From positions 1 to 21,866 of IMG/VR virus record IMGVR_UViG_3300007344_000299: a stretch of 21,866 nucleotides of DNA. One strand, written 5' to 3'. A program made the translations under genes and the position numbers. Shown in pieces: positions 975 through 20,813 of the stretch. Under the pieces are notes generated by a model. The model worked only from the letters and a program-made list of their open reading frames with translations, searched no databases and was not told where the DNA came from. The DNA is from a virus. Position 1 is the stretch's first letter; the number at the start of each line of letters is the position of its first letter.

Positions 975-996
975 CACAAGAGGATGAGTCAAAGAG

Positions 997-1022
997 GGAG
1001 CGTTTAGGCGCTCCTTTTTTTT
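997..1022 (+). terminator. Intrinsic terminator after the first plus-strand unit
   Basis: The stem GGAGCG (997-1002) pairs with CGCTCC (1009-1014) around a 6-base loop and is followed by eight T residues (1015-1022). It sits between the convergent stops at 974 (plus) and 1027 (minus). The T-run is only on the plus strand, so the main direction is plus. On the minus strand the same stem is followed by CTCTTTG and would be weaker. Confidence 0.9.
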
Positions 1023-1026
1023 GTGC

Positions 1027-1260
1027 CTACAGATCCAGTAAGTCACCGAAGGAAGGCAAGTGTACTCCATAACTCACACAGTACTTTATAATGTTCTCAA
1101 GGATTTTGCCGCGAATCAGATAGTTTGCATATACAATTCCAAGGACCTCTCGCGCCTCCTGAGGGCTCAGCTTCTCAAGCCCATCCAGAAAAGCACGGTG
1201 AGTGAAACTCTGTTCAAGAGTTAGGTGCGACTTAAGCTTATTTAGTAATTCTTCAGTCAT
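1027..1260 (-). CDS. nblA: NblA-like phycobilisome degradation protein
   Basis: This 77-residue protein has the size and helix-turn-helix layout of NblA, a small dimeric adaptor that binds phycobilisomes and directs them to the Clp protease during starvation. Visible family features are an N-terminal LTLEQSF segment (residues 13-19), then LSPQEAREVL (31-40), then an amphipathic helix with the spacing L..xxY..YLIR....NIIKY (40-60). Cyanobacterial NblA proteins read in parallel with LEQ.F, LSREQAQEFL and LY..MMVRE...KHFLKH. The identification is by recalled family pattern, not by a search. Cyanophages such as Ma-LMM01 are known to carry nblA. The gene is alone on its strand, convergent with the terminated upstream unit. 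Its ATG (1258-1260) overlaps the ATG of the divergent gene at 1259, so its promoter and leader must lie inside that gene. No clear ribosome-binding site is visible. Confidence 0.65.
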   Translation of the reverse strand: MTEELLNKLKSHLTLEQSFTHRAFLDGLEKLSPQEAREVLGIVYANYLIRGKILENIIKYCVSYGVHLPSFGDLLDL

Positions 1261-1795
1261 GTCCAGCTTTTACACCGTACCTCGGTATATTTTCGATCCT
1301 ATCGGGAATTCTGGGCTTATCGACGGTGTGATCCTCCTGCCCTGCGACTTTAACGGGCAGCTAGAAAAACAGATAAGACGAACAGGACTAAGCGACATCG
1401 TGACAAACGACAACGAAGAAAATCTTGTAGATCTTGACTGGTGGGTGGCGCAAAAAGACCAAGCTGACTGGGTTATAGCAATCACACAAGGTATGAAGGA
1501 CTACACAAAATGGATAACAGAGTGTGGGTTACAGGCAGCTAGAAAAGGTGTGTGCATACTAGATCGATTAACATTCTTAGAGCCCACGCGGGCACGAGAA
1601 GATTTCTTACAGGACTCTTCTCTCACAAACATTAAGATCTTGAGCCCAAGGCCTTCATTCCGTGCGGATGGTACTACAGCAAAAGATCCTGTGACTTCAG
1701 CGTGGTTTGTCTTTCAAAAGCCAGGTGCAGCAGCTGTAAATACACAGATAGATTTCGAAGTAGGCTGGCACCGCCCTCAAGACCTTAAATTGTGA
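1259..1795 (+). CDS. Methyltransferase-like protein with degenerate catalytic motifs
   Basis: This 178-residue protein follows the plan of phage and cyanobacterial adenine-type SAM-dependent methyltransferases, but the key motifs have changed. Residues 24-35 (VILLPCDFNGQL) stand where those enzymes have a VLEPCAGDG-type SAM-binding loop. Residues 47-54 (IVTNDNEE) match the acidic strand-2 region. Residues 70-78 (DWVIAITQG) stand where a DWVVTNPPY catalytic motif would be, and no N/D-PPY is present. Downstream motifs are well kept: RLTFLEPTRAR (103-113), ILSPRPSF (127-134) and DPVTSAWFVF (143-152). It is therefore probably an inactive binding protein or a decoy rather than an enzyme. The ATG at 1259 is chosen because the longer frame from 1202 would run into the nblA-like gene and has no family-like sequence. 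It overlaps the next gene by four bases (GTGA). Confidence 0.7.
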   Translation: MSSFYTVPRYIFDPIGNSGLIDGVILLPCDFNGQLEKQIRRTGLSDIVTNDNEENLVDLDWWVAQKDQADWVIAITQGMKDYTKWITECGLQAARKGVCILDRLTFLEPTRAREDFLQDSSLTNIKILSPRPSFRADGTTAKDPVTSAWFVFQKPGAAAVNTQIDFEVGWHRPQDLKL

Positions 1796-2138: not shown

Positions 2139-2918
2139 GTGTCCGATACACGAGTAACGGTTAACGGTTTAAGGCACTACGTTTGTAATGGCGTCCCCAA
2201 GCCACTACCTTCTGTAACCTCAATCCTGAGCGCCACGCAGACTGAGGCTACACGAGCAAAACTTGCTCATTGGAACGCCTTAAATCCTGGCGCAGCAGAC
2301 GCCGCTGCTACTAGAGGAACGTGGATACACAACAGTGTTGAAGATTACTTGAGGGGGCTTCGTGTTATCCCGTCCGAGCAATACAAGCCTTACTGGGACG
2401 GGGTGCCTGAACTACTAGATGATCTTCTTGAAGGAGGTCGCGTTCTCTGGTCTGAGAAACCTTTCAATCAACCACGCTGGGCAAAGTACGTAGGTGATGA
2501 CGGCGTAGGTCGGATTCACTATTACGACGAAAAGACTGGGCACGGCTACGCAGGTTGCTGTGACTTGATCTACATGAACTCGAACGCTGAGATCATCTTG
2601 GCTGACTTCAAGACCAGCAACGGACCTTACTCAGCTCGGTTTCCAAATAAAAACCACAACATCGACGAAAAGACTAAGAAAGCTTTGATCTCGGGCGTAT
2701 TTAAAACAAAGAAGACAAGGCTCCAACTTGCTGCTTATAAAGCTGCTGCGGAAGCTTGTTTAGGAATTAAAATCGATAAGACTCAAATTATTGTTACGAC
2801 AGCTATTAAAGAATTCAACACGCAAATATTCACCTTCGGACCTGAGGAGGTTGAAAAAGACGAAGTAAGTTGGTTCGAAGTTGTTAAACAGTACTACGAG
2901 TTAAATCCGGCGAAGTAG
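2139..2918 (+). CDS. PD-(D/E)XK nuclease (RecB/Cas4-like exonuclease)
   Basis: This 259-residue protein carries the ordered motifs of the RecB/Cas4-type PD-(D/E)XK nuclease family: a GTWIHNSVEDYL helix with His64 (consensus GxxxHxxxExxL), SEKPF around Glu106, GCCDLI with Asp142, ADFKTS with Asp156 and Lys158, and QLAAY with Gln196 and Tyr200. These residues normally bind two metal ions and cleave DNA ends. Length and motif order suit a stand-alone phage exonuclease, which would act in recombination, replication-fork processing or host DNA degradation. It precedes the primase-helicase on the same strand, supporting a replication role. The start is a GTG at 2139. No strong Shine-Dalgarno sequence is visible, as is common in this window. 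Confidence 0.85.
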   Translation: MSDTRVTVNGLRHYVCNGVPKPLPSVTSILSATQTEATRAKLAHWNALNPGAADAAATRGTWIHNSVEDYLRGLRVIPSEQYKPYWDGVPELLDDLLEGGRVLWSEKPFNQPRWAKYVGDDGVGRIHYYDEKTGHGYAGCCDLIYMNSNAEIILADFKTSNGPYSARFPNKNHNIDEKTKKALISGVFKTKKTRLQLAAYKAAAEACLGIKIDKTQIIVTTAIKEFNTQIFTFGPEEVEKDEVSWFEVVKQYYELNPAK

Positions 2919-7582: not shown

Positions 7583-8281
7583 TTACTGAGGTAGGTAACG
7601 CAGAAAGTCCCAACCTTTAAGAGAAGGATCCCCAGATTCTTTTACAGCCTTAACAACCGTAGGCAGTTCACGAGCGAGTCGATAACCGATAGAGCGTGCG
7701 ATCTGCCGATGCTCTTTTTGAGTGTCGTCTTTACCCCGTAAACCTACATAGTGGATAAAACTCCTGACGGTTCCACTCATGTGCATACGGGTAGGTGTAT
7801 ACAACGGAAGAATATTCCTTGCGCATTCACGAGCCACGCCTGCTTCGAGCATCTCGTTATAGAGCCCTTGGATTTGACTATCGACAATTTCCAACCGCTC
7901 CCAGAACGATTCGCACAGATAAACAGGCAGACGGTCGACGCTGCTCTGCCGATTCTTAGACGCTTGGAAGCGAAGCTCGAACTGAAAGGGCTTCTCTTCG
8001 AGTTCTAAGGTTTCGCTAGGAGCACAATAACGCTGACTCAGCTCCTGAAATACGAAGCTCCTGTGCCTCAAAACTTGAGGCGATATCGCCCTAGTTGTCG
8101 AGATCTCAAAACTGGCAGACGCTTGCTCAAAAACAGACCAGTGTCCGTGTTTGATGCAATAAACTAAAAGCTTCTCGTAATCCTCACGATCAGGGTCTTT
8201 AGTAGAGACCCTGGCGTGTCTTGCAATTACTTTCTCCGCATCTGGCGTGATCCAATCCAGATCAGCAGTATGCAGTTGCAT
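7583..8281 (-). CDS. thyX: Flavin-dependent thymidylate synthase
   Basis: ThyX makes dTMP from dUMP with methylene-tetrahydrofolate, NADPH and FAD. The 232-residue protein carries the signature RHRX7S: Arg72-His73-Arg74 followed by Ser82 in RHRSFVFQELSQRY. It also has the preceding HWSVFEQASASFEI segment and a downstream GTVRSFIHYVGLR segment that fits the family substrate-binding helix. The length is normal. The ATG at 8281 shares one base with the stop of the 45-residue gene upstream (TGATG), so the two are probably translationally coupled. Phage ThyX supplies thymidylate for phage DNA synthesis, and many cyanobacteria and cyanophages use ThyX rather than ThyA. Confidence 0.96.
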   Translation of the reverse strand: MQLHTADLDWITPDAEKVIARHARVSTKDPDREDYEKLLVYCIKHGHWSVFEQASASFEISTTRAISPQVLRHRSFVFQELSQRYCAPSETLELEEKPFQFELRFQASKNRQSSVDRLPVYLCESFWERLEIVDSQIQGLYNEMLEAGVARECARNILPLYTPTRMHMSGTVRSFIHYVGLRGKDDTQKEHRQIARSIGYRLARELPTVVKAVKESGDPSLKGWDFLRYLPQ

Positions 8282-9459: not shown

Positions 9460-10695
9460 TCACTTAGCCAGAATCACCCATCCCGATTTCGACCCCTCTA
9501 CCAGGAATCTGGGTCCTAGGTTTTCCTTGGAATACAGCCTGTACTTACCGTCAGTAGATACGTAGTTTCCATTGACAAGATCAAGATCCCCAAAAGGATC
9601 ATGGATCCAAAGTTTAGTCTTATCTGCGGTTACCCCCACGCAGCAGATCCAATGACCCCCACCCACTGGGTTAGAGACGGGTCCTTTATGCAGAATACCC
9701 ATAGGTACAGGGATGCCCCTTTGAAGCTGGTGCTCGATCAGATCCCAGTCGGCGTTCTGAACAAATCGCGCATCGACGCCAAAGTGCTTAAGTGTTTCCA
9801 ACTGAGCTGAGGCTTCAGTAGTGTCTCCATACTTATAAACTTCATTAATGTATTCATCGTCTCCTTCGATTGCGTCTGGGTCGACGCCAGCAAGCAGCAT
9901 GGCACAGCTACTACTGAAGCAGGTGCGCATAGGGTCCTTCTTATTATCGCGTTGCGAAAAATAAGGAATAACTAACTTAATCTCATTATCTAAAGACGGT
10001 GCTTTTTCCTGCGTCTTAGTGTCGTTGATAATTTTCCAGTGATCTGGGTAAAACCACCATTCCTGCTCCGGTTTCTGCTCCAGAATGACGCGCTGATGGG
10101 TCTCGCCTGCGTAGATCCGAATTTCGTTCCACTGCCACGCGCTGCCTTTCGGAACAAACAGCTTGTCTTCTGGGGCTAGAGAAGATGAATCAACAGGACG
10201 TCGCTTAAGCCAAGTATCACGCTCAGCCAGTATGGATTTAGCCAAGAGAGGGTGCTTAACTTTCTCTAAGAATAACTTTTTCTCCTCGTCGCGACGACGA
10301 ACTAGACCGGGTACGGGTTTATCGTCACCTGCCTTAACCCAGCGAGAAAATTCTGCTGCTACGACGCTCCGCTCGGCTCCGTGGTTTAAAAGCCTTAGAA
10401 GCGTACTGTTAACGAAGGCGGTAGGTCCGATGTTGAATGTAAAAGAGACTAAAGCGTCATACTCATTCTGATTAATTTTTACAGTCACAAAGCTACTTAC
10501 AGTCTGCTGAGCACTTTCGGTGTCGCGCCACAGCAGTTCTTCTGCTTTTTCTTCGGTTATTCGCAGACCGGATTTGACATCATCACCGGTATGCCCATAG
10601 CCAATAGTTAGAACACCGGCTGGGCAGATATACGCAGTTAAACGAAGACCTTCGAACTTTTTAATTAGATCTATGCCGTTCTGTGAGACGCGCAT
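9460..10695 (-). CDS. Two-domain endolysin: GH24 lysozyme plus C39-like peptidase domain
   Basis: The 411-residue protein opens with a phage GH24 lysozyme domain (residues 1-150). Its catalytic set fits the family pattern E-x8-D/C-x5-T as Glu15 (KKFEGL), Cys24 (ICPAG) and Thr30 (LTIGYGHTG). A linker with Trp-rich strands follows (175-235). The C-terminal part (240-411) looks like a papain-fold C39-type domain: IPYFSQRDN, Cys259 or Cys264 in TCFSSSCAML, His348 in GGGHWICC, and Asp366 in WIHDPFGD. The first domain would cut the glycan strands and the second probably cuts or binds peptide. There is no signal peptide, so release would need a holin, and a holin-like gene lies at 12316-12495. The ATG at 10695 follows directly on an RNA hairpin that holds its ribosome-binding site. 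Confidence 0.93.
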   Translation of the reverse strand: MRVSQNGIDLIKKFEGLRLTAYICPAGVLTIGYGHTGDDVKSGLRITEEKAEELLWRDTESAQQTVSSFVTVKINQNEYDALVSFTFNIGPTAFVNSTLLRLLNHGAERSVVAAEFSRWVKAGDDKPVPGLVRRRDEEKKLFLEKVKHPLLAKSILAERDTWLKRRPVDSSSLAPEDKLFVPKGSAWQWNEIRIYAGETHQRVILEQKPEQEWWFYPDHWKIINDTKTQEKAPSLDNEIKLVIPYFSQRDNKKDPMRTCFSSSCAMLLAGVDPDAIEGDDEYINEVYKYGDTTEASAQLETLKHFGVDARFVQNADWDLIEHQLQRGIPVPMGILHKGPVSNPVGGGHWICCVGVTADKTKLWIHDPFGDLDLVNGNYVSTDGKYRLYSKENLGPRFLVEGSKSGWVILAK

Positions 10696-17232: not shown

Positions 17233-18312
17233 TCAAGGCCGAAGCGTGTACCAACCAGAATCGGATAAGTCAAAAAGATCACTAAAAATACGATCGTACC
17301 TTTTACCGCATGTCTCCAGGCTGTAGCGATCTCGGCTAATTTTTGCGATTTCTTTACGATCTAGATCGCCCACTTTATCTAAAGCATCAACCCAATCACC
17401 GAGTGTGTGGCATCGGTACCCAGTAACCCCTTCGACAACAGTTTCCGTAAATGCCCCGTAATCAACGGAAATTAAAGGAGTTCCGCAGAGCATGGCTTCC
17501 ACGCCGCTGCCTCCAAAAGGTTCCGTAAAAACTGTAGGCATCAGTGCGGCTCTGGCATTCCGTAAAAAGGCTGAGCGCTCTTTACCGGAGATAGGCCCCA
17601 AATAAGTTATATTTTTGTGCTCCCAAGGAGAGGGATCACCCTGCCCGCACAGCAATATGGGCCATTTAGTGTGGTTAGCTAACTCCTTAATAGTATCAAG
17701 TCCTTTCATAGAGCATATTCGGCCTAAAAAGGCTAGATAAGTGCCTGGTTCATAAGACGGTTCCCACTCATCGATGTCAAAATAATTCGGCACAACCCAC
17801 TCGTAATTAACACCGTTGCGCCCCTCTTTTCCTTGGTGGTAGTGCATCCATGCGTAGCTCTCATAGACGTGGAAAGCGTTTGACATGGTCGTCGGGTAAC
17901 CGATACCGGTTTCTATGTGGCTATACCCGGAAAACAGCTCAACTAGGCGACTGTGAGCGTGTCCAAAGGGATGACAAATTATGTCTCCCTCCCGCAAACG
18001 ACTTTGGAGGCGAGGGATTAACTTGGTTTCGAAAAGCTGGTGTCCCTCACTCCCGACCACGGCTACATCGCCATAAAAATCAGACTTACGGCGAGAACCG
18101 TAAAGATCGTCAAATTCTTTCTTACTAAGAATTTCTACGTGCTCCGAGGCTTCTGATTCGCTACCAAAGTTACTATATTCGATTACGTTATAACCTTGAG
18201 CTCTCATCATCTTGGAAAAGCGTAAAACTTTCCCAGTAAAAGCACAGTGACTGTAAGCTTGTGTGACTCTAGTATGGAATAAACCTATTAAATGAAGTGT
18301 AGGCTTGCCCAA
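17233..18312 (-). CDS. GT-B (GT4-type) glycosyltransferase
   Basis: This 359-residue protein has a GT4-family C-terminal half: LAFLGRICSMKGLD with Arg198 and Lys203 that contact the nucleotide-sugar phosphates, LLCGQGD at the sugar-nucleotide strand, and the EX7E motif Glu264-Glu272 in EPFGGSGVEAMLCGTPLI. The N-terminal half starts with a Rossmann strand (TLHLIGLFHT). The start codon appears to be TTG at 18312, because the first strand follows directly and no upstream ATG exists before the collagen gene stop. It would transfer a sugar from a nucleotide donor. It lies between two collagen-like fibre genes, so the likely acceptors are fibre proteins. Modification of host surface glycans is an alternative. 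Confidence 0.9.
   Translation of the reverse strand: MGKPTLHLIGLFHTRVTQAYSHCAFTGKVLRFSKMMRAQGYNVIEYSNFGSESEASEHVEILSKKEFDDLYGSRRKSDFYGDVAVVGSEGHQLFETKLIPRLQSRLREGDIICHPFGHAHSRLVELFSGYSHIETGIGYPTTMSNAFHVYESYAWMHYHQGKEGRNGVNYEWVVPNYFDIDEWEPSYEPGTYLAFLGRICSMKGLDTIKELANHTKWPILLCGQGDPSPWEHKNITYLGPISGKERSAFLRNARAALMPTVFTEPFGGSGVEAMLCGTPLISVDYGAFTETVVEGVTGYRCHTLGDWVDALDKVGDLDRKEIAKISRDRYSLETCGKRYDRIFSDLFDLSDSGWYTLRP

Positions 18313-18348: not shown

Positions 18349-20813
<2,465 letters not shown>

Follow-up and report, generated by a model that had tools for sequence, protein, structure and literature searches.

Cyanobacteria destroy their own light-harvesting antenna through the adaptor NblA, and control of the host antenna by phages is known from a few isolates. 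The locus described here raised the question of whether a short open reading frame at positions 1027–1260 of a virus record encodes a further phage NblA and, if so, what such a protein might do during infection. The window, i.e. the whole stretch of 21,866 bases that was analysed, carried genes for a P4-type primase-helicase, a PD-(D/E)XK exonuclease, ThyX, an endolysin and HNH nucleases together with tail-type genes.

The virus and the locus

Megablast of the window returned no named phage, and neither an Rfam match nor a tRNA was found in it. Its near relatives G001, G002 and G003 were 84–86 kb in length, and G001 (85 kb) had 29 proteins in common with Synechococcus phage S-EIV1 (GenBank:KJ410740), several of them structural, in a colinear structural block. 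The window had 7 proteins in common with S-EIV1, which was also the named phage closest to its primase. Judged from these shared proteins, the window virus is a distant relative of S-EIV1, a freshwater cyanobacterial phage, and because of this kinship (the 29 proteins of G001 and the primase) its host is likely to be a picocyanobacterium. The gene for ThyX, a flavin-dependent thymidylate synthase (7583–8281, minus strand, E = 1.6e-41), was on the strand opposite to the replication genes, and the endolysin (9460–10695, minus strand) was a phage lysozyme (Pfam Phage_lysozyme, E = 1e-44) fused to a C39-like cysteine peptidase (Peptidase_C39_2, E = 4e-5). A glycosyltransferase gene (17233–18312, PHROG 3408) adjoined that for a protein of 542 aa in which a long collagen-like GATGPxG repeat occurs (18349–19977, minus strand); the tail region containing this repeat gene differed between the window and its close relative G001.

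The preliminary description had placed a 77-residue product at 1027–1260 and named no strand. The plus strand had no open frame there, with stops throughout, and the product was found to be real and encoded on the minus strand, from an ATG to a TAG stop; the assignment of this gene, designated NblA-I, drew on the list of open reading frames, the Pfam NblA match, conservation and purifying selection. One scan found relatives at 28 loci, and pairwise pN/pS pooled over relatives was about 0.21 for the core and about 0.17 for the tail. The motifs reported earlier were at the residues given for them, LTLEQSF at 13–19, LSPQEAREVL at 31–40 and a helix at Y44–Y60, which reads YANYLIRGKILENIIKY. The NblA domain proper (aa 13–59, 1084–1224, minus strand) comprised the LTLEQSF motif, a loop and the long helix YxxYLIR...IIK, and was followed by a C-terminal extension (aa 60–77, 1030–1083, minus strand).

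Downstream of nblA was a convergent plus-strand gene (144–974, 276 aa) with no confident family, a conserved flank that was also present at loci without nblA. Its intrinsic terminator (991–1022, plus strand), located just downstream of the nblA stop, consisted of GGAGCG-TTTAGG-CGCTCC followed by T8, with a predicted fold of −17.2 kcal/mol (z = −4.1). In the intergenic sequences of relatives the hairpin and T-run were kept with the stem sequence changed, and at related loci 45–73 bases separated NblA-I from the stop codon of its convergent neighbour. The consensus terminator scanner listed none at 991–1022, probably since the T run is itself paired as part of the stem. On the other side, a divergent plus-strand gene (1259–1795, 178 aa) gave a weak PHROG match to DNA methyltransferases; only its C-terminal part matched PHROG 799 (phage DNA methyltransferase, E = 8e-7), and its product is possibly a truncated methyltransferase-like protein. 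The ATG codons of nblA and this gene overlapped by 2 nt (window 1258–1261), an arrangement that recurred at several related loci and that requires the promoter of nblA to be within the divergent gene. A promoter search found no sigma-70-like promoter upstream of NblA-I, and no clear ribosome-binding site was seen at its start within the divergent overlap.

The PD-(D/E)XK exonuclease (2139–2918, plus strand, PHROG 298, E = 7e-26) served to mark the lineage when loci were scored for nblA, and 80 viral loci were found through it. NblA-I was present in 73 of these, at a fixed site about 850–890 bases upstream of the exonuclease and on the opposite strand; the remaining 7 loci, which lacked it, came from two branches of the tree built on the exonuclease, and in those inspected the genes on either side were still in place, as was the terminator behind the convergent gene. 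NblA-I is thus nearly fixed in its virus lineage, and it has the properties of an auxiliary gene: it is on a viral contig, is surrounded by exonuclease, primase, ThyX and endolysin genes, and is dispensable, as seen in the 7 loci without it.

Relationship to the NblA family

The profile search that had been proposed gave a match between PF04485 (NblA) and NblA-I at 29.5 bits (E = 1e-6), covering profile positions 2–48 of 50, above the curated cut-off of 25 bits; among 14 control genomes, this cut-off was passed only in Synechococcus elongatus. In the reverse direction, a family profile built from 15 NblA-I relatives was searched against 386 genomes of the cyanobacterial phylum and matched 24 of them at E < 1e-3 (best, 2.9e-7), and the matches that were compared were nblA loci also marked by PF04485, a reciprocal relation. 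Profile–profile alignment by hhalign of NblA-I with cyanobacterial NblA gave E = 1e-9 and a score of 49.2, as compared to 17.1 for the best of 60 column shuffles; when repeated with 44 NblA-I relatives, the score was 50.5 against a shuffle best of 15.1. The best PDB sequence matches, though weak, were the NblA chains 1ojh, 2q8v and 2qdo, and the residues of the N-terminal motif LTLEQxF were conserved in the 15-sequence set. Taken together, the Pfam score above cut-off, the reciprocal family-profile matches and the profile–profile alignment support NblA-I as a member of the NblA family.

Several searches returned less. NblA-I had no match in NCBIfam, a first scan of cyanobacterial genomes with family profile patterns found nothing, and the Pfam score of NblA-I was low beside those of the NblAs of Microcystis phage Ma-LMM01 (52 bits) and Planktothrix phage PaV-LD (45 bits). 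The monomer was modelled as a helix-loop-helix with helices H22–29 and H33–64 (pLDDT 75, pTM 0.45, i.e. modest confidence); Foldseek and VIA searches with the NblA-I and NblA-II (see below) monomer models gave nothing significant and did not list NblA, short helical hairpins being uninformative there. The shortness of the protein, its modest Pfam score, the fold search that listed no NblA and the position of its gene among replication genes would all suit a short helical hairpin that resembles NblA by chance, in a protein with an unrelated replication role, but with a profile–profile E value of 1e-9, shuffles far below it and reciprocal matches, we regard such a coincidence as highly improbable.

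In common with cyanobacterial NblA (PF04485; PDB 1ojh, 2q8v, 2qdo and 3cs5), NblA-I had a core of about 48 residues, an LxLEQxF start and, in the model of modest confidence, a helix-loop-helix layout, whereas it differed in the core (about 27% identity), in an 18-residue tail containing LPSFGDL and in being virus-encoded. The tree with cyanobacterial and phage NblAs that the preliminary description had proposed was built, and NblA-I formed a separate long-branched clade (support 100/95), with Ma-LMM01 and PaV-LD falling elsewhere. Comparison with the known phage proteins showed that 1) like those of the freshwater phages Ma-LMM01 and PaV-LD, NblA-I is a phage-borne NblA of a cyanobacterial virus, but it has neither the 52-bit score nor the WGLEP tail kept by the Ma-LMM01 protein, and it continues for 18 residues after the domain whereas the PaV-LD protein ends after two, 2) like ORF237 of marine cyanophage S-SCSM1, it is a distant NblA homologue carried as an auxiliary gene, the S-SCSM1 protein differing in its length of 54 aa, its lack of a PF04485 match and its lack of such a tail, and 3) S-EIV1, the related virus, has a protein with an NblA-like domain (AHV82245.1), which differs in its location (the NblA-II place, not the NblA-I site), its long acidic tail and its score below the cut-off. 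Nadel et al. (2019) reportedly presented a set of marine cyanophage NblA-like proteins. Among 50,697 named phages, tblastn with NblA-I, a distant member and NblA-II detected no relative, and tblastn with the S-EIV1 protein against named phages detected only itself; S-SCSM1 NblA and small Syn5 proteins matched none of the profiles.

The C-terminal tail and the proposed function

A C-terminus longer than that of a typical NblA had been noticed before, and it was borne out by counting the residues after the NblA domain: 18 in NblA-I versus 2–12 in a comparison set of 36 NblAs from cyanobacteria and two from phages. The tail (residues 60–77) had the pattern YCxxxxVxLPSFGDL, kept in the clade, in which LPSFGDL did not vary among the 15 sequences of the smaller set and was strongly kept among the 44 of the larger one; it stands in place of the WGLxP tail found in many cyanobacterial NblAs.

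ClpC binds near the N-terminus of NblA and phycobiliproteins near the C-terminus (PMC4103541; PMC7760959), and cyanobacteria made to express the NblA of freshwater or marine phages bleach (PMC9602691). We consider it probable that NblA-I is a phage NblA: a small adaptor for proteolysis that would bind ClpC and phycobiliproteins and lead to phycobilisome degradation in infection. By analogy with the NblAs studied, from which ClpC binding, phycobilisome binding, dimerisation and bleaching are carried over to NblA-I, contact with the host ClpC unfoldase would be made through LTLEQxF near the N-terminus, and binding of phycobiliproteins through the second helix together with the C-terminal tail; the ClpC-ClpP protease would then degrade the phycobilisome during infection, and its loss would free amino acids and cut light absorption. 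Antenna degradation by NblA-I is inferred because the phage NblAs tested bleach cyanobacteria (PMC9602691).

Since the tail differs in the very region reported to bind phycobiliproteins, it is plausible that the phycobiliprotein target of NblA-I has changed; a role for the tail in tuning which phycobiliprotein is chosen is speculative. A further-reaching alternative is that the NblA fold was repurposed, with ClpC binding kept and the tail delivering another host or phage protein, or with the protein acting as a decoy that blocks ClpC. Retention of LTLEQxF while the reported phycobiliprotein binder at the C-terminus was replaced by LPSFGDL, and the long branch separating NblA-I from other NblAs, would fit such a change; the core helix, however, is retained and strongly selected, and divergent phage NblAs elsewhere still bleach cells (PMC9602691), so that repurposing appears distinctly improbable to us.

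A second NblA-like gene and its possible counterpart in S-EIV1

All six large contigs with NblA-I (G001, G002, G003, G395, G396 and G397) contained a second NblA-like gene, NblA-II, 25–31 kb away. Its product had 77–84 aa with the pattern LTLEDDFTLTRLKN...CRERAYKSVM..GVxIDTNxDIF, and the gene (L129:1730–1963 of G001, plus strand; equivalents in L144–L168) adjoined a lysozyme-like gene where the structural region ends. Synteny indicates that some 4 kb separate the end of the window from NblA-II. The NblA-like identity first proposed for 1027–1260 held, on the curated profile, the reciprocal matches and the profile–profile alignment, as part of a picture whose second gene was out of the earlier reader's sight, the strand having been left unstated. 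For NblA-II, evidence of NblA kinship was weaker than for NblA-I: PF04485 gave 16 bits, below the cut-off, and hhalign to NblA scored 21.4 as compared to a shuffle best of 16.0.

In S-EIV1, AHV82245.1 (KJ410740.1, 73902–74222; L141:13902–14222), annotated as hypothetical, was marked as NblA-like by hhalign. Its alignment to NblA gave E = 3e-6 and a score of 34.8 (shuffle best, 18.8), and about 44 IMG/VR loci carried relatives. Because its gene occupied the same interval between matching blocks as NblA-II and each had a lysozyme or lysozyme-like gene beside it, the two may be positional counterparts.

Synechocystis NblA1 and NblA2 form a heterodimer (PMC4227741), and this precedent, together with the co-occurrence in six of six large contigs and the weak likeness between the NblA-I and NblA-II profiles (26.4 versus a shuffle best of 22.6), raises the alternative that NblA-I acts only with NblA-II in such a pair. 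We consider this obligate pairing unlikely, since 25–31 kb separate the two genes, which belong to different modules, just one NblA-like gene is present in S-EIV1, and some related loci are without NblA-I at the usual site. Whether NblA-I and NblA-II are sisters was left undecided by the tree (about 76 columns, AU p = 0.34). A looser version, tentative and somewhat doubtful in our view, is a two-adaptor lineage in which NblA-I, encoded in the replication region and bearing the LPSFGDL tail, and NblA-II, as heterodimer or successive adaptors, would direct host ClpCP to phycobiliproteins that differ from one stage of infection to another; a role for NblA-II as partner or as differently timed adaptor is speculative.

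With antenna degradation by NblA-I as the preferred reading, the core claim is ordinary, because phage NblA is a known kind of protein with published bleaching activity. What is new is the NblA-I clade, its conserved tail, its near-fixation in the lineage and the genomes with two NblA-like genes; no description of the NblA-I/NblA-II pair was found in the literature searched, which did not extend to Chenard 2015 (S-EIV1) and Nadel 2019, and priority is uncertain. These observations describe an nblA that is nearly fixed (73 of 80 loci) in viruses akin to a freshwater cyanophage, the few loci that have naturally lost it being available for comparison. Its conserved tail falls where NblA is reported to contact phycobiliproteins, and the same genomes encode a second NblA-like protein. 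The observations also suggest that S-EIV1, an isolated phage, carries an unrecognised NblA, which would make infection experiments possible.
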